DNA from: Pseudovibrio sp. M1P-2-3
GTDB lineage: Bacteria > Pseudomonadota > Alphaproteobacteria > Rhizobiales > Stappiaceae
DNA: 64,000 bases
Assembly (NCBI RefSeq): GCF_031501865.1
Contig: NZ_JARRCW010000001.1
Location: forward strand, 381,001-445,000
Reading direction: 5' to 3'
Part shown: one piece after another, positions 37,116-45,184 of the stretch
Position numbering within the stretch: the first letter of the stretch is position 1
Layout of the letters: each line of letters opens with the position of its first letter
The notes under the pieces: model-generated
Told to the model about the DNA's origin: nothing
What the model saw: only the letters and a program-made list of their open reading frames with translations
Database searches by the model: none
Program-made: the position numbers and the translations under genes

Positions 37116-37192
37116 GCACCGGTAGCTCAGCTGGATAGAGCACCAGACTACGAATCTGGGGGTCGGGGGTTCGAATCCTCCCCGGTGCGCCA
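37116..37192 (+). tRNA. tRNA-Arg (anticodon ACG), copy 1
   Basis: 77 bases including an encoded CCA. The acceptor arms GCACCGG and CCGGTGC pair perfectly; D-arm GCTC/GAGC; anticodon stem CCAGA/TCTGG with loop CTACGAA, giving ACG; T-arm GGGGGTTCGAATCCTCC. The A at position 34 is expected to be deaminated to inosine. Confidence 0.97.
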
Positions 37193-37265: not shown

Positions 37266-37342
37266 GCACCGGTAGCTCAGCTGGATAGAGCACCAGACTA
37301 CGAATCTGGGGGTCGGGGGTTCGAATCCTCCCCGGTGCGCCA
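37266..37342 (+). tRNA. tRNA-Arg (anticodon ACG), copy 2
   Basis: Identical over all 77 bases to the copy starting exactly 150 bases upstream, with little similarity between spacers apart from the immediate flank. A recent tandem duplication or gene conversion would explain it. An IS630 element begins 75 bases downstream. Confidence 0.97.
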
Positions 37343-37499
37343 TTCCTCCATTAAAATTTATCTCTTAAAATAATCAGCGTCATTCCTGCTATCTTGCATG
37401 CGCCTCTCCATTTTATACCAACGGCACCTGTTTTTGACTCGGGATGAGGATTCCCAAATCACTTGAATTGTGATTCAACATTGGGAAAGGAGATTCCCA

Positions 37500-38015
37500 A
37501 TGTCAGCGATCCCATTGCGCCGAGACTATGATGCTTCTTCGTTACGAACTCTTGCTTGTCAAAGTAAGGATGTCAGGCAGAGCCGCCGCCTTCTTGCTCT
37601 TGCTGCTGTTTATGATGGGTTGTCGCGCTTGGAGGCGGCACGCATGGGCGGCATGGACCGCCAAACACTGCGAGACTGGGTGCATCGGTTTAACGCAGAA
37701 GGGCCGCACGGCCTGTACAATCGTAAGAGCCCGGGCCGTGTCCGGTGGTTAAATAAAGAGCAAATGGCTGAATTTGCAGATCTGGTTGAGGCTGGGCCTG
37801 ATTTACAACAACACGGCGTAATTCGCTGGCGTCGGCGGGATCTGCAAGGTGTGATCGAGCAGAAGTTTGGGGTCAGCTATAGCGAAAGGGCTATTTCAAG
37901 CCTCCTCACAGTTCTGGGATTTTCTCGGGTCAGCGTTCGGCCACAGCACCCGGCACAGGACGAGCAAGTTATGGAGACATATAAAAAAACTTCCATGCCC
38001 GGCTTAAAGAAATAA
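37500..38015 (+). CDS. IS630 transposase, upstream frame
   Basis: 171-residue N-terminal part with a helix-turn-helix (L-E-A-A-R-M-G-G-M-D-R-Q-T-L-R-D-W-V) and a winged second domain. It ends in frame soon after a run of seven A (37983-37989). A slip of -1 there (K-K then N-F-H-A-R-L-K-E-I-K) enters the downstream frame, so the full transposase of about 354 residues is probably a frameshift product. ATG at 37500 has AAAGGAG upstream. Confidence 0.88.
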   Translation: MSAIPLRRDYDASSLRTLACQSKDVRQSRRLLALAAVYDGLSRLEAARMGGMDRQTLRDWVHRFNAEGPHGLYNRKSPGRVRWLNKEQMAEFADLVEAGPDLQQHGVIRWRRRDLQGVIEQKFGVSYSERAISSLLTVLGFSRVSVRPQHPAQDEQVMETYKKTSMPGLKK

Positions 38016-38017
38016 AA

Positions 38018-38563
38018 GTGCGCTTGCCCTCACAAACATCCATGGAAATCTGGTGGCAGGACGAAGCCCGCATTGGTCAAAAAAATGGGCTCACCAGAAG
38101 GTGGGCAAAAAAAGGAACGAGACCACGGGCTCCCAGCGACGGGCGCTATCAATCAACTTATGTATTCGGGGCCATCTGCCCCGCCCACGGCAAAGGGGCA
38201 GCACTTGTTTTGCCCAAAGCCAATACCAATTCCATGCAGCTTCACCTTAAAGAAATCAGCCGAACCGTCGCCAAAGGGGCGCACGCAGTGGTCCTGATGG
38301 ATCAAGCGGGTTGGCATACAACAGCAAAACTGAAGTTGCCTGATAATATAACCATCTTGCTGCTCCCACCCCGTTCTCCGGAGTTCAACCCGGTTGAAAA
38401 TGTTTGGCAGTACTTACGGCAAAACTGGCTCTCTAACCGAACCTTTCAAGACTACCAGGAAATTGTCGATGCCGCCTGTTCCGCTTGGAATAAGCTTATT
38501 CAACAACCCCACACAATCACATCAATCGGTAGACGAAATTGGGCGCATACAGGTCAATTATAA
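38018..38563 (+). CDS. IS630 transposase, downstream DDE frame
   Basis: C-terminal DDE catalytic half, probably made only by -1 frameshifting from the upstream frame. The first catalytic aspartate is in W-W-Q-D-E-A-R-I-G, the second in V-L-M-D-Q-A-G-W-H and the glutamate in S-P-E-F-N-P-V-E-N-V-W, so the triad is intact. The annotated start is a formal in-frame start only. Confidence 0.87.
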   Translation: MRLPSQTSMEIWWQDEARIGQKNGLTRRWAKKGTRPRAPSDGRYQSTYVFGAICPAHGKGAALVLPKANTNSMQLHLKEISRTVAKGAHAVVLMDQAGWHTTAKLKLPDNITILLLPPRSPEFNPVENVWQYLRQNWLSNRTFQDYQEIVDAACSAWNKLIQQPHTITSIGRRNWAHTGQL

Positions 38564-39151: not shown

Positions 39152-39479
39152 TCTGTCTCTCACTGCCGTGGTCGATTGTATTTTCATCTTTTAATTGGGG
39201 GGAGGAGAGAACGCAACGCATCTGTGGATGCCCCGTGTTTTGCAAGTTGTTTTTCGAGCAATTTTGGCATGTGATCGGTTGCGGTCATCTGTCAGGCCTC
39301 GTTGTGCGGCGCTGCATTTGCCGCGGGCCGGTATGGAGATACGCAACTTGGCTCCAATACACATTTGCGGGCTTTTTGCCCGGTGCGAAAGACTGGTTAT
39401 GCCAAGTCGGATCTAGTCGATCGTTTACCCTTACTGCTCAAAGCCCTCCTCACATCCCGACGGACCTGTCCTGAAGCAC
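39152..39479 (-). other. gene debris between mog and IS110 element
   Basis: 328 bases richer in G and C than nearby DNA. On the minus strand a frame open from the IS side ends with F-R-T-G-Q-K-A-R-K-C-V-L-E-P-S-C at about 39300, followed at once by a 34-codon frame (39288-39184, M-T-A-T-D-H-M-P-K). They may be the 3' end of one or two genes cut by the IS110 insertion. I do not recognise the family. Confidence 0.35.
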
Positions 39480-40505
39480 CTATTTAGCCGGGGACAGGTT
39501 TCGGTAGTCTTCATCTTTGACCAACATAGCCCACAATCTACGAGCCATTTTGTTTGCAAGCGCGATAGCCACCACCATACTTGGTTTTCTTTCAAGCATT
39601 CTTCCAAGCCATAAGCTTTCTGGCCTCCCCGTCCGCCGGGCAGCACCAATGAGTGCCATAGCTCCGATGATCAAAAGCCTTCGGATATCGCGCTGGCCCA
39701 TTTTCGAGGTTCGGCCCAAGATCTGCCTTCCCCCTGTTGAATATTGTTTTGGCACAAGCCCCAGCCATGCGGCAAAGTCCCGCCCTCGGCGGAACGTGCT
39801 CATTGATGGGGCAAATGCTGTAACCGCCATGGCCGTTATCGGCCCTATTCCGGGCATGGTTTGCAATCTTTGCGCAGCCTTGTCCTGGTTCGCTTCTATT
39901 CGAAGCTGCTTTTCCAGGGACTGGATCCGGTTTGTGAGCAGTGCAATTTGCTCCAGGTAGATCTGACCGAGTTGAAGCACCACAGGAGGCAGGTCACTGT
40001 TCGGAGCATTCAAAGCCTCAGCCAGTTTCTTAACGTGTACCGCCTTTCTTGGTGCGAGGCAGCCAAACTCAGCCAAATGAGCTCTCAAGGCGTTGATCAA
40101 CTGAGTACGTTGACGTACAAAAAGATCGCGGCTACGGAATAACACGGCGCGACTTTGCTGATCCTTTGATTTTATCGGAACCGTACGCATTGTGGGGCGC
40201 GACGCTGCTTCCGCAATGGCTTCCGCGTCAGCTGCATCGTTTTTTTGACGTTTTACAAATGGTTTCACATAGATTGGGGGAATCAATTTAACATCATGCC
40301 CCAGAGCGCGAATTTCTCGCCCCCAACTATGGGCAGTAGCGCAAGCTTCCATTGCCACAACACAAGGTTCTTGTTTGGCAAAGAACGGTAACATCTGCCC
40401 GCGTGACAATTTCCGTCGAAATAAAACCTTGCCGTCTGGTGCCGCACCATGAGCTTGAAAACTGTGCTTTGCCAAATCTAAACCTATAATGCTAACCTCT
40501 GCCAT
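39480..40505 (-). CDS. IS110-family transposase
   Basis: A 341-residue DEDD transposase of the IS110 family. The RuvC-like N-terminal domain starts with I-I-G-L-D-L-A-K-H-S-F; later acids lie in V-A-M-E-A-C-A-T-A and K-N-D-A-A-D-A-E-A-I. The C-terminal transposase_20 domain has M-P-G-I-G-P-I-T-A and the conserved serine region L-G-R-T-S-K-M-G. The frame is uninterrupted, so it may be active. The start at 40505 matches the family; the open frame continues upstream without support. Confidence 0.93.
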   Translation of the reverse strand: MAEVSIIGLDLAKHSFQAHGAAPDGKVLFRRKLSRGQMLPFFAKQEPCVVAMEACATAHSWGREIRALGHDVKLIPPIYVKPFVKRQKNDAADAEAIAEAASRPTMRTVPIKSKDQQSRAVLFRSRDLFVRQRTQLINALRAHLAEFGCLAPRKAVHVKKLAEALNAPNSDLPPVVLQLGQIYLEQIALLTNRIQSLEKQLRIEANQDKAAQRLQTMPGIGPITAMAVTAFAPSMSTFRRGRDFAAWLGLVPKQYSTGGRQILGRTSKMGQRDIRRLLIIGAMALIGAARRTGRPESLWLGRMLERKPSMVVAIALANKMARRLWAMLVKDEDYRNLSPAK

Positions 40506-40690
40506 GGATGTCCCTTCCCAATCTTCGATTGCTTCAATCGTAAATATGGCACATTGCGATGCCGCCGGGTGGGGCATCCACTCCATCACATTTGCTCCTT
40601 CGAAGTGGACCAGCCTGTTAGTGATGCCTATGCAGATTTTACGAATATGCAAGCTCAACCCTATGGAAGGATACTGCTTCCCATAGAACG
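39480..40690 (-). mobile_element. IS110-family insertion sequence, ends approximate
   Basis: Element carrying the transposase above. IS110 elements usually lack inverted repeats and have a non-coding region beside the transposase that encodes a guide RNA in studied members. The 180 or so bases upstream of the transposase (40506-40690) are a candidate for this. Exact junctions cannot be fixed without an empty site. Confidence 0.6.
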
Positions 40691-40866
40691 GTGCCATGCT
40701 GAGGGCGTAAGAGGTAAATTGAAGTTAAGGGCTGTTGGTTCTGCTGAGAACTTTAAACTATCCCTATCGGCTTCTTTAAAACAATCTCGATAGTCTTGCA
40801 GGCGTAGCTCGCTCCCGTCAAAGCTCGGTGAGCCGGAGTGAGGCTTGAAAGGAGGTTGAAAGCGAA
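40506..40866. other. non-coding IS110 flank and promoter of redox cluster
   Basis: 361 bases without a convincing gene. The left half probably belongs to the IS110 element; the right half includes an imperfect GC-rich inverted repeat (about 40806-40840) and an AAAGGAGG ribosome site just before the next start. Confidence 0.5.
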
Positions 40867-41091
40867 ATGGGTGCAGCTGAACTCATCATTCTAGTTGCCA
40901 TTGTCTATTGCGTCTTGGGGGCTTGTGTGGCTCTCCCGTTTCTTGTGTTTGGAATTGGCCGCGTTGAGGACGCTGCGAGAGGAGCCTATTGGTTTCGTCC
41001 GCAACTGTTGCCGGGGCTTGTCTTGCTTTGGCCAATTGTTTTGGTGCGCTGGCGTGTTCTGCTTAAACAACAGAGACCAAAGGAGGGGTGA
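40867..41091 (+). CDS. small membrane protein of redox cluster
   Basis: A 74-residue protein with two hydrophobic segments (about 5-30 and 48-62) and a short basic tail. I do not recognise a named family. It has a strong AAAGGAGG upstream and its TGA overlaps the ATG of the next gene, so the two are translationally coupled. Membership in the Rieske cluster is inferred from this arrangement. Confidence 0.72.
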   Translation: MGAAELIILVAIVYCVLGACVALPFLVFGIGRVEDAARGAYWFRPQLLPGLVLLWPIVLVRWRVLLKQQRPKEG

Positions 41092-41252
41092 TGCAAAGAA
41101 GGTATCGCAGGGCACACCGTATCCTATGGTTTTTTCTCGCAGTTCTTATTCCTGCAGTTCTTGCGGTTGCACTTTGGCAAAAACCCTCCGGTCAACATGA
41201 ACAACCCGCTGTTGCGCTTGATGAAACTGCTCAAACAATTGGGGAGGAATAA
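41091..41252 (+). CDS. 53-residue single-pass membrane protein
   Basis: A short gene with a basic N-terminus (M-Q-R-R-Y-R-R-A-H-R) and one membrane helix at about residues 12-29 (W-F-F-L-A-V-L-I-P-A-V-L-A-V-A-L-W), then a 24-residue polar tail, probably periplasmic. AAAGGAGG precedes the ATG; the start overlaps the upstream stop, and the stop lies directly against the GTG of the Rieske gene. Function unknown. Confidence 0.7.
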   Translation: MQRRYRRAHRILWFFLAVLIPAVLAVALWQKPSGQHEQPAVALDETAQTIGEE

Positions 41253-42308
41253 GTGAGTGTAAAGTACATTCCGGTTATCTGGAATCGCACGAAACTGGTT
41301 TATGATTTGGTCGCTCTGGCCTGTATTGGGAGCTACCTGTCAATTTATTTGTATCTCGCTCCTTTCTATCAGCAGGTGACGCGGCCAATTGACGGTGCAA
41401 TATATAAGGCACAGGCATACGGGACTTGTGTCTTTTTCCTACTGACAGTTATTTTGAGTATTGGACCGCTATCTCGTTTGGACCGGCGATTTCTGCCTTT
41501 GCTATATAATCGGCGTCACCTTGGCGTGATTACATGTGCTCTTGCATTTTTTCATGTGTCCTACGTTATTGACTGGTACTATGCATTTTCTCCAACCAAT
41601 AAATATGTGGCAGTTCTTACCAGCAATACGAGCTTTTTTCAGTTCCTAGGTTTTCCCTTTGAGATTCTTGGTCTACTGGCTCTGCTTCTTCTGGTGGTGC
41701 TAGCGGTTACAAGCCATGACTTTTGGCTGCACTTTCTGGGGCCTCCTCTCTGGAAGACCCTTCATATGGGAATTTATGTGGCTTACGCCCTAATAGTTGC
41801 GCATGTTGCCTTGGGCGCTTTGCAAAGTGCAGCCGGGCCGCTGTTTCCAGTTGTTGTTGGAGCTTCGGCCTCGATGGTGATTGTTTTACATTTACTTGCC
41901 GCCCGACATGAGGGGTTGGTCGATCAAAACGGCCTCGTGGCTGAGGACGGAGGCAATTGGGTGAATGTGGGCTCTCCTTTCCGTATTCCAAACAAACGCG
42001 CCATTATCGTCAATGTGAAAGAGGATGAACGGGTCGCCATTTTTAGGGATGGAAATAAGGTTTTCGCTATCTCCAATGTGTGCGCCCATCAAAACGGCCC
42101 CTTGGGAGAGGGGAAAATTGTTTACGGTTGTGTCACATGCCCTTGGCATGGTTATCAATATCGTCTGGAGGATGGTTGTTCCCCCCCGCCTTTCAAGGAA
42201 AAAGTTGCCACATACTCACTTGAGTTGAGAGGGCAAGCCCTGTTTCTTAACTCTCATGCCCACCCTCCCGGGACAAAAATTCCACCAGTTCTTTTGAAGA
42301 AAGAGTAG
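41253..42308 (+). CDS. ferric reductase-like transmembrane/Rieske [2Fe-2S] fusion protein
   Basis: A 351-residue fusion. Residues about 20-215 form a six-helix ferric-reductase-like membrane domain with histidines placed as heme ligands (H101, H171, H184). Residues about 235-345 are a Rieske domain whose cluster ligands are C277, H279, C296 and H299 (C-A-H and C-P-W-H boxes). The plan suggests electron transfer between a membrane b-type heme and a 2Fe-2S cluster; donor and acceptor are unknown. The GTG start follows the preceding stop with GGGGAGG upstream. Confidence 0.87.
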   Translation: MSVKYIPVIWNRTKLVYDLVALACIGSYLSIYLYLAPFYQQVTRPIDGAIYKAQAYGTCVFFLLTVILSIGPLSRLDRRFLPLLYNRRHLGVITCALAFFHVSYVIDWYYAFSPTNKYVAVLTSNTSFFQFLGFPFEILGLLALLLLVVLAVTSHDFWLHFLGPPLWKTLHMGIYVAYALIVAHVALGALQSAAGPLFPVVVGASASMVIVLHLLAARHEGLVDQNGLVAEDGGNWVNVGSPFRIPNKRAIIVNVKEDERVAIFRDGNKVFAISNVCAHQNGPLGEGKIVYGCVTCPWHGYQYRLEDGCSPPPFKEKVATYSLELRGQALFLNSHAHPPGTKIPPVLLKKE

Positions 42309-42315
42309 GGAAGGG

Positions 42316-43086
42316 ATGCCCACTAAACAGCCTGATCCATTTTTTATTGGTTGGTCAAAAAAACCTCCCAAAGCTCTTCGCTGGTTCCTTTTTGTAGTTT
42401 CTGCGGTGCTTGTTGGCGCGGCTGCTGGGGTTGCATTTGGTCTGGGAGCGTCCCTGTCAGACCCCGGGGATGGACACTTTTCATGGTCTCAAAACCAGCA
42501 GCCTCTCATGGGGGTGATTGAAGCCAAGCCCTATCCGATTCTGCGTGTCGTGAAGGAGGGGCAGCAAGGCAGCTCGGAAGCGATCTTACTAGCTGGAATA
42601 GGGAAGCGCGGAATTCAGTCCAAACTCACTGCTGATATCAGTGGCCCTGTTAAAATTCAGGGGGTCCCGTTGAAGCGTGGTACCATCAATATGCTTCAAG
42701 TGGGAAGAATAGAGGCGTTGGAGGAGACTGCTGCAGCAAGCCAACAAAGTCCTATCATTTCCCCTTCCAAAAGCCTTGGGCGTTGGCGGTTAACCGGTGA
42801 GATCTGTGATGGGAAATGCTATATCGGTGCAATGCGGCCCGGCAACGGCCTTGCCCACAAAGCCTGCGCCAACCTTTGTATCATCGGCGGCTTACCACCC
42901 GTATTTGTTACAAGCAGCCCCATAAAAGGGCAGAGTTTTTTCCTTTTGTCAGATGAGCAAGGCAATCCCCTTTCCAGTGATTTTCTAGACTACACCGCCC
43001 TCCTGATATCTATGGAGGGGGAAGTTGAGCAGCGAGACGACCTGTTGATTTTTAAAATTGACCCAACGTCCGTTGAGCGCCTTTAA
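42316..43086 (+). CDS. membrane-anchored protein with Cys/His cluster
   Basis: A 256-residue protein, unrecognised by name. An N-terminal helix at about 22-44 anchors a periplasmic domain. Near residues 161-196 is a dense motif with C164, C168, H181, C184 and C188 around G-E-I-C-D-G-K-C-Y and C-I-I-G-G-L-P-P-V, which could bind metal. From memory, similar motifs occur in proteins encoded beside Rieske or cytochrome genes. It follows the Rieske fusion by seven bases and closes the cluster. Confidence 0.75.
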   Translation: MPTKQPDPFFIGWSKKPPKALRWFLFVVSAVLVGAAAGVAFGLGASLSDPGDGHFSWSQNQQPLMGVIEAKPYPILRVVKEGQQGSSEAILLAGIGKRGIQSKLTADISGPVKIQGVPLKRGTINMLQVGRIEALEETAAASQQSPIISPSKSLGRWRLTGEICDGKCYIGAMRPGNGLAHKACANLCIIGGLPPVFVTSSPIKGQSFFLLSDEQGNPLSSDFLDYTALLISMEGEVEQRDDLLIFKIDPTSVERL

Positions 43087-43277
43087 AAGCGCTGCTGAGA
43101 CACTGTCAGTAGTGAAGCAGAGTTCCTCTTGTTTTCTTCAAAAGGGAGCCAGCTTTTATTTCCCATTAACTTAACGTGAGCTGGAACCTATTGGAAAAGC
43201 TATATATGCCTCTAGGCGAAAGTTTCTCTTAACGGCCTTTCTGCGACTATATCCCAAGACATATGGGAGGGATTGGT

Positions 43278-43826
43278 ATGCTCGGTATCGTGTTTACAGA
43301 ATTTATCGAGATGGTCGAGGAAGAGTTCTCTCCCGATGTCGCAGACGATATCATCGTGGCCATGGAAGAGTTTTTGCCAAGTAAAGGCGTATATACAGCT
43401 GTTGGCGAGTATGATCATACTGAAATTTTGCAGTTGGTGACACACCTCAGTGAAAAAACGAATATCCCTGTTGCTGATTTGGTTGAGGTGTTTGGCCGTC
43501 ATTTATTTTCCCGATTTGTTATTCGCTATCCTGAGTTTTTTGATTCAGTTGATGATATCTTTGTGTTTCTTATGGGAATTGAGGATCATATCCATCGAGA
43601 GGTCCGAAAACTCTACCCACATGCAGAGCTTCCCACTTTTTCCTATCAAAGGCCCGAACCAAATAAGCTGATAATGGACTACTCATCCACACGGCCATTT
43701 TCCCATCTGGCTCTGGGGCTTATTCGAGGAGCCAGTGCCCATTTTGGTACTGACATAGAGTTGCAGATGGTCTCACCTGCCGAGAGTGAGGGTCGTAAAG
43801 CGACATTTACTCTTGTTCGGCGATAG
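43278..43826 (+). CDS. hnoX: H-NOX heme nitric-oxide sensor
   Basis: A 182-residue heme-NO/oxygen-binding protein. The likely proximal heme ligand is H106 (in [12 protein letters not shown]) and the YxSxR heme-propionate motif is Y135, S137, R139. Facultative anaerobes such as this one generally use NO-selective H-NOX. The ATG at 43278 follows GGGAGG; an ATG 15 bases upstream is less well placed. The next gene, a hybrid kinase, is the usual partner. Confidence 0.92.
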
Positions 43827-43831
43827 TTGGT

Positions 43832-45184
43832 ATGGATATTCAGCGTCTCCAACGCCGTTTTGAAAGAGAGCGGCAGGCCAGAAAAGAGGCCGAGAAGCTG
43901 CTTGAGGACAAAGCAAGAGAGCTATACTTGGTCAATAGCGCGCTTTCCACCACACTTGAGGAGCTTGAGGAGCGTATTCACGAGAGAACCCATGAATTAC
44001 GGCTCGCTACTCGGCAGGCTCAGCGGGCGAATGTGGCTAAGTCGGAATTTCTGGCAAATATGAGCCATGAAATCAGAACGCCTTTGAACGGGATCATTGG
44101 AATGTCAGAGTTGATGTTCGAGACCCGGTTAGATGTGAAGCAGCGTGAGTATGCTGCAATGATACAGGACTCTTCTCAGGCCCTTCTTGAAATTATCAAT
44201 GATATTCTGGACTTTTCGAAGATAGAAGCCGGGCAGATGGATGTGAATGTGGGCACTTTGAACCTGCAGGATGTTCTGGGGTCGGTTATGAATATCAATT
44301 GGCACCGGGCTGAAAAAAAGGGACTGGAGCTGAAAGTTGACTACCCTGAGGCAGGGCCCTTCATGTTTGTGAGTGATCAAGCCTTTATAAGGCAGATTAT
44401 CTCTAATCTCGTGGGGAACGCGGTAAAATTTACTGAAAAAGGTGGCGTGTATATCTCTGTATCCTTCCAAGTAGAAGGACAGCTTGCTTATGCCACTGTG
44501 TCCGTTCGCGATACAGGTATCGGGATCGCAGATGATCAGGTAGATCAGGTTTTTGAAAAATTTCAACAAATAGACAGTTCTTCCAGTCGAAAATATGCAG
44601 GTACCGGTTTAGGGCTGGCCATTACCCGCTCACTGGTGGAGTTGTTGAATGGAGAGGTTTACGTGAAGTCCGAGCTGGGTGTCGGGTCGTGCTTTTATGT
44701 TGAGGTCCCCCTTGTCATAGCCAGCAGCATCTACATTGAGATGGAAAAGCAACGGCAGGCCAAAGAAGCTATCGGTGATTTGAGGGGGTATAAATCTGGA
44801 TCCAGAATTCTTGTCGCAGAAGATACGCCAGTCAATCAGCTTGTTTTGATGGCCTATCTGGAAAGTGAGCCTGTTGAGATGACACTTGCCGACCACGGTC
44901 AGCAAGCTTTGGATTCGTTCCATGAAATACAGCCGGATCTGGTTTTTATGGATGTGTCCATGCCGGTGATGGATGGCTATGAAACAACACGGAAAATTCG
45001 GAGCTATGAGAGCAAGTGCGGTTTGCCGCATACGCCTATTGTTGCGCTTACTGCCAATGCAACACAAGAGCACAAGCGCCGATGCCTGAGTGCGGGTATG
45101 GATGATTATGTAAGTAAGCCAGTTACCAAGGCTGGTATTCTTGATAAGCTGCATAAGTGGCTGCCAAAGCAAAACGCAACTTAA
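43832..45184 (+). CDS. hnoK: H-NOX-associated hybrid histidine kinase
   Basis: A 450-residue soluble kinase. An N-terminal coiled coil (about 1-70) leads into the HisKA domain with phospho-histidine H79 (N-M-S-H-E-I-R-T-P), an ATP-binding domain ([23 protein letters not shown]) and a C-terminal receiver with the acceptor aspartate in [11 protein letters not shown]. No membrane helix is present, so signal input must come from H-NOX, encoded five bases upstream. No downstream response regulator or c-di-GMP enzyme is adjacent. Confidence 0.9.

Follow-up and report, generated by a model that had tools for sequence, protein, structure and literature searches.

The cluster of four open reading frames described here, in which a ferric-reductase-type membrane protein fused to a Rieske domain (FR-R) is accompanied by two small membrane proteins (s1 and s2) and an anchored Cys/His protein (CYS), raises the question of whether these genes constitute a functional unit and, if so, between which partners such a unit would move electrons. 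The cluster is located in a stretch of 64,000 nucleotides of the Pseudovibrio sp. M1P-2-3 genome (contig NZ_JARRCW010000001.1), referred to here as the window. The ORF coordinates (Table 1) confirmed the compact arrangement reported in a preliminary description, with overlaps or gaps of at most 7 nt: s1 and s2 overlap by 1 nt (or by 4 nt if the GTG start of s2 is used), s2 and FR-R are directly contiguous (0 nt), and FR-R and CYS are separated by 7 nt. A Shine-Dalgarno-like sequence (AGGAGG) is present upstream of s1, within the interval that separates this gene from the preceding insertion element, while a promoter/terminator scan of the cluster returned signals that were not clearly above those of shuffled sequences.

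Table 1. Features of the cluster and of its upstream border (positions in the window)
Feature	Position	Strand	Description
IS110-type element	39217..40596	-	1380 bp; between moaB-like gene and s1, at the position of the Rieske-Glu_synthase gene in congeners
IS110-to-s1 interval	40597..40866	.	270 bp
s1	40867..41091	+	74 aa ORF
s2	41091..41252	+	53 aa from ATG; alternative GTG start at 41088
FR-R (ferric-reductase-type/Rieske fusion)	41253..42308	+	351 aa; Pfam matches
CYS (Cys/His protein)	42316..43086	+	256 aa ORF

Linkage of the four genes was examined in 80 loci, kept as the best among 205 confirmed stretches that a scan of named genomes with the CYS alignment had yielded. In these CYS-selected loci, tblastn located FR-R in 80/80, s1 in 78/80, s2 in 71/80 and all four genes in 71/80, with identical gene order and strand in 80/80 loci for the genes found. 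The gap between FR-R and CYS, as measured from the tblastn ends, was at most 75 nt in 79 loci and 311 nt in the remaining one (L110). The same order and strand in 80 loci, 71 of which contain the complete set, indicate that the cluster is not a product of chance; the four genes are thus linked in related genomes, a point on which the preliminary description had staked its proposal. When CYS was searched against 61 related genomes, strong matches were obtained in 12 of the 16 that belong to the genus of the window (own genome included) and in four others (G032, G035, G054 and G060), with FR-R present in the same genomes.

When 385 genomes were sampled evenly across the class Alphaproteobacteria (own genome included), CYS was detected in 25 (16 full length and nine with the C-terminal domain only) and FR-R in 18. 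Two of these (G276 and G442) carry FR-R without a CYS match, and all 16 genomes with a full-length CYS possess FR-R, adjoining CYS by coordinates (Fisher p 1.9e-26, a value in which the kinship of genomes overstates their independence). Among 398 genomes of the phylum, full-length CYS was observed in seven (own genome included), all belonging to the class of the window, with partial matches in four more. The module occurs in isolates of Pseudovibrio and Roseibium. Pairwise comparison with the window genes showed 67-82% identity at codon positions 1 and 2 and 32-36% at position 3. First and second positions are therefore far better preserved than third positions, indicative of constraint at the protein level over most of the divergence; dS, and with it dN/dS, was not computable, third codon positions being saturated. 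It is concluded that s1-s2-FR-R-CYS is one conserved module in some alphaproteobacteria.

Pfam assigned families to FR-R but returned none above cut-off for s1, s2 and CYS; in NCBIfam, none of the four proteins exceeded a cut-off. FR-R was matched by Ferric_reduct (PF01794; 6.3e-11, 42.8 bits vs a gathering score of 28) and by Rieske (PF00355; 1.8e-13), so that the fusion recognized in the preliminary description indeed combines both domains. Residues ~12-225 correspond to the ferric-reductase/MsrQ-type domain, for which model prediction gave six membrane helices and the ferric-reductase-domain (FRD) fold. The C-terminal Rieske domain (residues 236-333), predicted to be cytosolic, has a Rieske fold and the CxH...CxxH ligand pattern (C277, H279, C296 and H299), as in Rieske ferredoxin-like proteins.

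Residue conservation was assessed in alignments derived from 95 loci; those with incomplete or odd-length ORFs were dropped, leaving 94 CYS and 93 FR-R sequences, which were thinned by similarity to 68 and 60, respectively, and to which the window protein was added in each case. In FR-R, H89, H101, H155, H171 and H184 were invariant (61/61) and H213 nearly so (60/61). The distal-heme His pair of the FRD superfamily (TM3/TM5) would correspond to H101 and H184, which align with H91 and H164 of E. coli MsrQ, while H171 corresponds to H151 and R87 to R77 of that protein. The first canonical heme-His position of NOX-type proteins is thus occupied by Arg (R87), suggesting that FR-R may bind only one heme. 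Two hemes according to the NOX four-His rule (H89-x11-H101 and H171-x12-H184 pairs) were accordingly dropped as proven, since R87, and not H89, holds the canonical place; a second heme may be bound through H89, H155 or H213.

CYS is predicted to be a periplasmic protein with an N-terminal membrane anchor (helix 19-46), followed in the predicted structure by two OB-like barrels, the second of which contains C164, C168, H181, C184 and C188. All five residues of the Cys/His cluster that had been proposed earlier are present in the window protein; C168, H181, C184 and C188 were invariant (69/69), and C164 was conserved in 61/69 sequences. Given that C164 differs in eight of the 69, the core site is taken to consist of three Cys and one His. 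No match was found up to E 1 for the CYS profile against sequences of solved structures or, in Pfam, for the SCO1/SenC domain (PF02630) in CYS. Secreted-looking relatives of the second CYS domain were followed by a second small protein in 10/10 loci and additionally by a SCO1/SenC-type gene in 8/10 (assigned by grouping, with one example confirmed by Pfam).

The two small proteins are likewise predicted to reside in the membrane. In s1, two membrane segments (6-24 and 47-65) were predicted and 10 residues (G18, V21, F25, G29, R44, P49, G50, W55, P56 and V58) were invariant across nine aligned sequences, while s2 has one such segment (11-29) and a positively charged N-terminus, for which reason its C-terminus is probably periplasmic. 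Both share a single ORF in two loci (L134 and L145), and they may act as small structural subunits of a membrane complex.

The upstream border of the cluster differs from that of its congeners. In all 11 congeners that were read, a gene of ~538 aa precedes s1; it is full length in 10/11 and reduced to a 189-aa ORF in P. exalbescens (G008). Its product combines a Rieske and a Glu_synthase domain according to Pfam, as determined for two full-length examples. The usual set in the genus is therefore composed of five genes, the fifth of which is lacking in the window, where its place is taken by an IS110-type element (Table 1). The genome has eight further copies of this element with ~100% identity, of which seven are whole and one is split. 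The idea that part of the Rieske-Glu_synthase gene had survived next to s1 was rejected, since neither the window nor the 270 bp preceding s1 yielded any remnant. The genome contains no orthologue elsewhere, its matches being 31-37% identical and confined to the Glu_synthase part. The element may have caused the loss of the enzyme gene or may have arrived later. The preliminary description had overlooked the upstream enzyme gene and the IS110 copy that occupies its position, as well as the Rieske-thiamine-diphosphate partner described below, which is often unlinked.

The Rieske-tagged enzyme was also traced beyond the genus. The Glu_synthase cluster of the 80 loci includes 44 called ORFs with a length of 480 aa or more. 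All 44 contain a C-x5-C-x4-C motif, which we take to be the one that binds the [3Fe-4S] cluster in glutamate synthase, and 41/44 carry Rieske motifs within their first 160 residues; of the remaining three, two are probably called with too long an N-terminus and one is an ordinary large glutamate synthase. No Rieske-Glu_synthase gene was present within the flanks of 31/80 loci. In the sample of 385 class genomes, a Glu_synthase enzyme was detected at E <= 1e-120 in 13, and the match extended into the Rieske part in eight of these. Seven of the eight possess the module, the eighth (G134) being a genome of 67% completeness; the enzyme gene adjoins the module in three of the seven, is located ~17 kb away in two and is found on another contig in two. 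Conversely, full-length CYS or FR-R was found in 0/5 genomes in which the match lacked the Rieske part. Co-occurrence of the Rieske-tagged enzyme and the module gave Fisher p values of 3.8e-10 by genome and 5.7e-7 by genus (5/6 genera), both of which are inflated by shared ancestry. A relative of the enzyme encoded on a Vibrio fortis plasmid (L177) was shown to have CDGSH in place of the Rieske domain.

A second Rieske-tagged enzyme, containing a thiamine-diphosphate (TPP) domain, was observed in the fetched flanks of 28/80 loci, in 25 of them together with the Glu_synthase gene; a Na/H antiporter gene is present in the flanks of 23/80. In a set of 80 hand-chosen, hence non-random, genomes (those with the module were taken first, followed by others in numerical order), Rieske-TPP was found in 6/15 module genomes, in 2/62 without the module (G061 and G063, which also lack Rieske-Glu_synthase) and in none of three others (G134, G276 and G442). 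All six module genomes with Rieske-TPP also encode Rieske-Glu_synthase, corresponding to six of the seven genomes in which module and Rieske-Glu_synthase coexist, and in one genome (G183) the module and the two enzyme genes are located on three separate contigs. The Glu_synthase fusion occurs without Rieske-TPP in G349 and in G134, the latter also being devoid of the module. No full Rieske-TPP match was obtained in 16 genomes of the genus of the window. Three haloarchaeal plasmids with Rieske-Glu_synthase each encode a Rieske-bearing ORF of Rieske-TPP size, confirmed by Pfam as Rieske-TPP in the two tested; the membrane part of FR-R is absent from the same plasmid records (3/3), where the fusion profile was matched by its Rieske part only. 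Together with G061 and G063, these plasmids indicate that the Rieske-tagged enzymes do not always need a conduit. The two enzymes thus appear to belong together as a pair, and in alphaproteobacteria they tend to accompany the module.

Attention was also given to 31 loci chosen mainly for the absence of a nearby Glu_synthase enzyme. OpgC and TPR genes were noted in 11/31 and an SDR gene in 8/31 (Pfam on examples; many of these loci derive from related Rhizobiaceae), and a thiamine-diphosphate enzyme without a Rieske part was found in nine of the 11 OpgC/TPR loci (a Rieske-motif check from which L138 is left out). The nearest tested genes differ between these loci (RecQ, BKACE, SIR2, TetR, glycogen debranching, patatin and others); a single recurrent nearest partner was consequently rejected, and no substrate is implied by the neighbours. 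The recurrence of the untagged form suggests that the thiamine enzyme itself, rather than its Rieske tag, may be what accompanies the module.

Beyond what computation shows, namely the gene set, its order and conservation, the FRD/MsrQ and Rieske homologies, the co-occurrence with tagged enzymes and the IS110 element at the site, we lean towards the view that the module is an electron conduit across the membrane, similar in kind to MsrQ and the ferric reductases. Electrons would enter in the cytosol at the [2Fe-2S] Rieske domain of FR-R, may be carried over the membrane by one or two b-type hemes bound within the six-helix core of this protein and would exit at the periplasmic face to CYS, whose site of three Cys and one His (holding a metal, possibly Cu, or acting as redox thiols) could accept them or pass them on. 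In some genomes, cytosolic Rieske-bearing enzymes, i.e. the Glu_synthase-type enzyme with FMN and [3Fe-4S] and the acetolactate-synthase-type enzyme with thiamine diphosphate, may exchange electrons with this conduit. As neither partner was found in the genome of the window, the conduit there would be fed by another donor or be losing its role. A bolder version, which we advance tentatively and consider somewhat doubtful, is that the module serves as a docking station, where unrelated cytosolic enzymes (the Glu_synthase-type FMN enzyme and the thiamine-diphosphate enzyme) would use their Rieske domains as plugs to put electrons from amino or keto acids onto a transmembrane cytochrome and thence onto a periplasmic Cys/His protein. 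The presence near the module of thiamine-diphosphate enzymes both with and without a Rieske tag renders this docking idea somewhat weaker, and the link to that kind of enzyme stronger.

Besides R87, the differing neighbours and the Rieske-tagged enzymes in genomes without the module, points against the conduit view are that the flow could be opposite and that FR-R occurs without CYS in two class genomes (G276 and G442). If reversed, FR-R would oxidize quinol (or a periplasmic donor via CYS) and its Rieske domain would feed the cytosolic Rieske-tagged enzymes, for example in a reductive amination of the glutamate-synthase type. Enzymes of the glutamate-synthase class consume electrons, and the retention of the cysteine motif in every long Glu_synthase-type partner, as well as the tracking of the module by this partner across genomes, is consistent with such inward flow. 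We nonetheless judge it unlikely, because MsrQ, STEAP and NOX proteins move electrons outward, as stated in the portion of PMC11031084 relied on here, and because the absence of Rieske-Glu_synthase from the flanks of 31/80 loci and of an orthologue from the genome of the window makes a permanent inward role for that enzyme improbable. Another reading places the module in metal-site assembly, with FR-R keeping CYS reduced and CYS serving a metalloprotein of the periplasm or of respiration, either by delivering Cu(I) or by maintaining thiols in the reduced state; the invariant site of CYS and the small-protein and SCO1/SenC-type genes that follow relatives of its second domain (in 10/10 and 8/10 loci, respectively) point in this direction, but no recurrent oxidase or copper enzyme was noticed in the neighbour listings, a few dozen neighbours of which were tested with Pfam, and we give this reading a rather low probability.

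The module in the window could moreover be a remnant that is losing its function after loss of Rieske-Glu_synthase, a scenario compatible with the other readings. The IS110 element at the position of the enzyme gene, the lack of an orthologue elsewhere in the genome, the lack of a full Rieske-TPP match in 16 genomes of the genus and the shortened enzyme gene of P. exalbescens would all fit such decay. However, the four window ORFs are intact with every ligand present, the codon-position pattern indicates protein-level constraint, and the module also exists without a nearby enzyme in other genomes (31/80 loci), making a remnant rather improbable. A functional tie to NO or nitrite stress, suggested in the preliminary description, derived from an H-NOX gene (Pfam HNOB, 8.8e-39) that begins 176 nt downstream of CYS on the same strand and forms a pair with a histidine kinase gene. 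Among 123 loci searched (several from the same genome, 15 with only ~1.5 kb of flanks and some on short contigs), H-NOX was found beside the module elsewhere only in P. exalbescens (L052/L068) and P. flavus (L054/L074), and the other Pseudovibrio genomes read carry different genes at this position. With the linkage limited to three Pseudovibrio species, the window included, an H-NOX-regulated operon was rejected and an NO/nitrite unit is regarded as very improbable.

The preferred conduit can be compared with several known systems, most closely with MsrPQ. FR-R shares with MsrQ (YedZ) a six-helix core of the ferric-reductase type, three aligned His and the R87/R77 correspondence, and in both cases the gene adjoins the one encoding a partner in the periplasm (msrP in E. 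coli; CYS, as predicted, here). In contrast to MsrQ, which uses a separate flavin reductase, FR-R possesses a C-terminal Rieske domain, and its H89, H155 (both invariant) and H213 (nearly invariant) are not His in MsrQ; furthermore, the partner is a Cys/His protein instead of the molybdoenzyme MsrP, and two extra small membrane proteins are present. FR-R scored 34.3 bits (34.8 in the genome search) against the MsrQ equivalog NF003831, far below its cut-off of 130, so a true MsrQ was rejected, and no MsrP gene was found among the genes tested at the window locus. Unlike NOX, ferric reductase (FRE) and STEAP proteins, FR-R has Rieske in place of an FAD/NAD(P)H domain (Pfam) and Arg at the first canonical His, and it therefore does not correspond to the NOX/long FRE form with four canonical His and an FAD/NAD(P)H domain. 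The MsrQ-like flavinylated systems (eLife 2021, PMC8238504), as described in the parts of that paper drawn on here, similarly pair a membrane protein of PF01794 with an electron partner outside the cytosol, whereas Pfam matched none of the four proteins to an FMN-binding or ApbE family; the word 'Rieske' is absent from the main text of that paper. A known defence system was also rejected, since PADLOC gave no match either for the four proteins or for one example of each partner enzyme.

With regard to the partner enzyme, CDGSH type 5 comprises CDGSH-glutamate synthase fusions, as given in the section of PMC3174974 cited here, in which a [2Fe-2S] module likewise precedes the Glu_synthase domain. 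The enzyme described here carries Rieske rather than CDGSH, and this Rieske form accompanies the membrane module in 7/8 genomes vs 0/5 for enzymes without a matching Rieske part (a comparison drawn on the Rieske part alone). A full-text literature search, with subscription journals mostly outside its scope, returned no paper that was recognized as dealing with the four-gene set or its Rieske-tagged partners. The architecture itself has been recorded: PMC3591440 lists Rieske as one of the fusion partners of bacterial ferric-reductase domains, and its relevant part assigns no function to the combination. The module would accordingly represent, as judged from sequence comparison, an MsrPQ-like conduit that is neither a member of MsrQ nor of the NOX/FRE long form. 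According to a 2024 statement in the portion of PMC11031084 consulted, MsrQ is to date the only prokaryotic ferric-reductase-domain protein with a clearly identified physiological function. Beside it, the present module, which is small and directly testable, is a second, well-delimited candidate. Its partner is probably periplasmic, a Rieske domain takes the place of a flavin domain on the input side, and cytosolic enzymes co-occur with it across genomes. Should the docking station prove true, it would be the second bacterial ferric-reductase-domain pathway with a defined physiological partner, after MsrPQ.

Relatives of the four-gene module, which consists of two small membrane proteins (s1 and s2), the ferric-reductase/Rieske fusion FR-R and the anchored Cys/His protein CYS, displayed variation in gene organization. 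At L134 and L145, s1 and s2 were contained within a single ORF, suggesting that the two proteins act jointly. In Pseudovibrio exalbescens (L052:8703-9272 / L068), the Rieske-Glu_synthase gene, which is the usual fifth gene upstream of s1 in congeners, was shown to be reduced to a 189-aa ORF next to an intact module, possibly representing an independent loss. Within the genome of strain M1P-2-3, no protein passed the MsrQ family cut-off, the sole match being the FR-R fusion itself.

Features of the window surrounding the module are listed in the table below. Among the loci searched, an H-NOX gene adjoining the module was observed only in the window, Pseudovibrio flavus and P. exalbescens. The IS110-type element was represented by eight further copies in the same genome (seven whole and one split), all exhibiting ~100% identity, indicating that this element has probably been active recently. 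At the tandem tRNA site, stretches of ~80 nt exhibited 95-99% identity to relatives.

Features in the vicinity of the module (window positions)
Feature	Position	Length	Strand	Remark
tRNA-Arg(ACG), tandem pair	37116-37192 and 37266-37342			
Two neighbouring ORFs resembling a split IS630-type transposase	37470-38563		+	Judged by eye
IS110-type element	39217-40596	1380 bp		
H-NOX gene and hybrid histidine kinase, a pair	43263-45184			

The flanks of nine module loci (L116, L118, L126, L131, L134, L138, L139, L144 and L146) recurrently encoded OpgC, a TPR protein and a thiamine-diphosphate enzyme, the last without a Rieske part, with Pfam searches being performed on examples. A chlorite-dismutase-family gene was located near the module in L174 (Rhizobium leguminosarum WSM1689), according to the record annotation, and in L129, where its Pfam score was slightly under the cut-off.

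The second predicted CYS barrel also has small relatives that look secreted, which belong to a separate alphaproteobacterial gene group (L180-L189) together with a second small protein and, usually, an SCO1/SenC-type gene. In the examples tested, neither small protein matched a Pfam family above the cut-off.

In all three haloarchaeal plasmids (L175, L176 and L179), ORFs of the Rieske-Glu_synthase and Rieske-TPP (Rieske plus thiamine-diphosphate enzyme) types were present on the same record, with an Na/H antiporter annotated close by in one of the three. As Roseibium was shown to possess a similar set of Rieske-tagged enzymes, this likeness may reflect transfer between domains.
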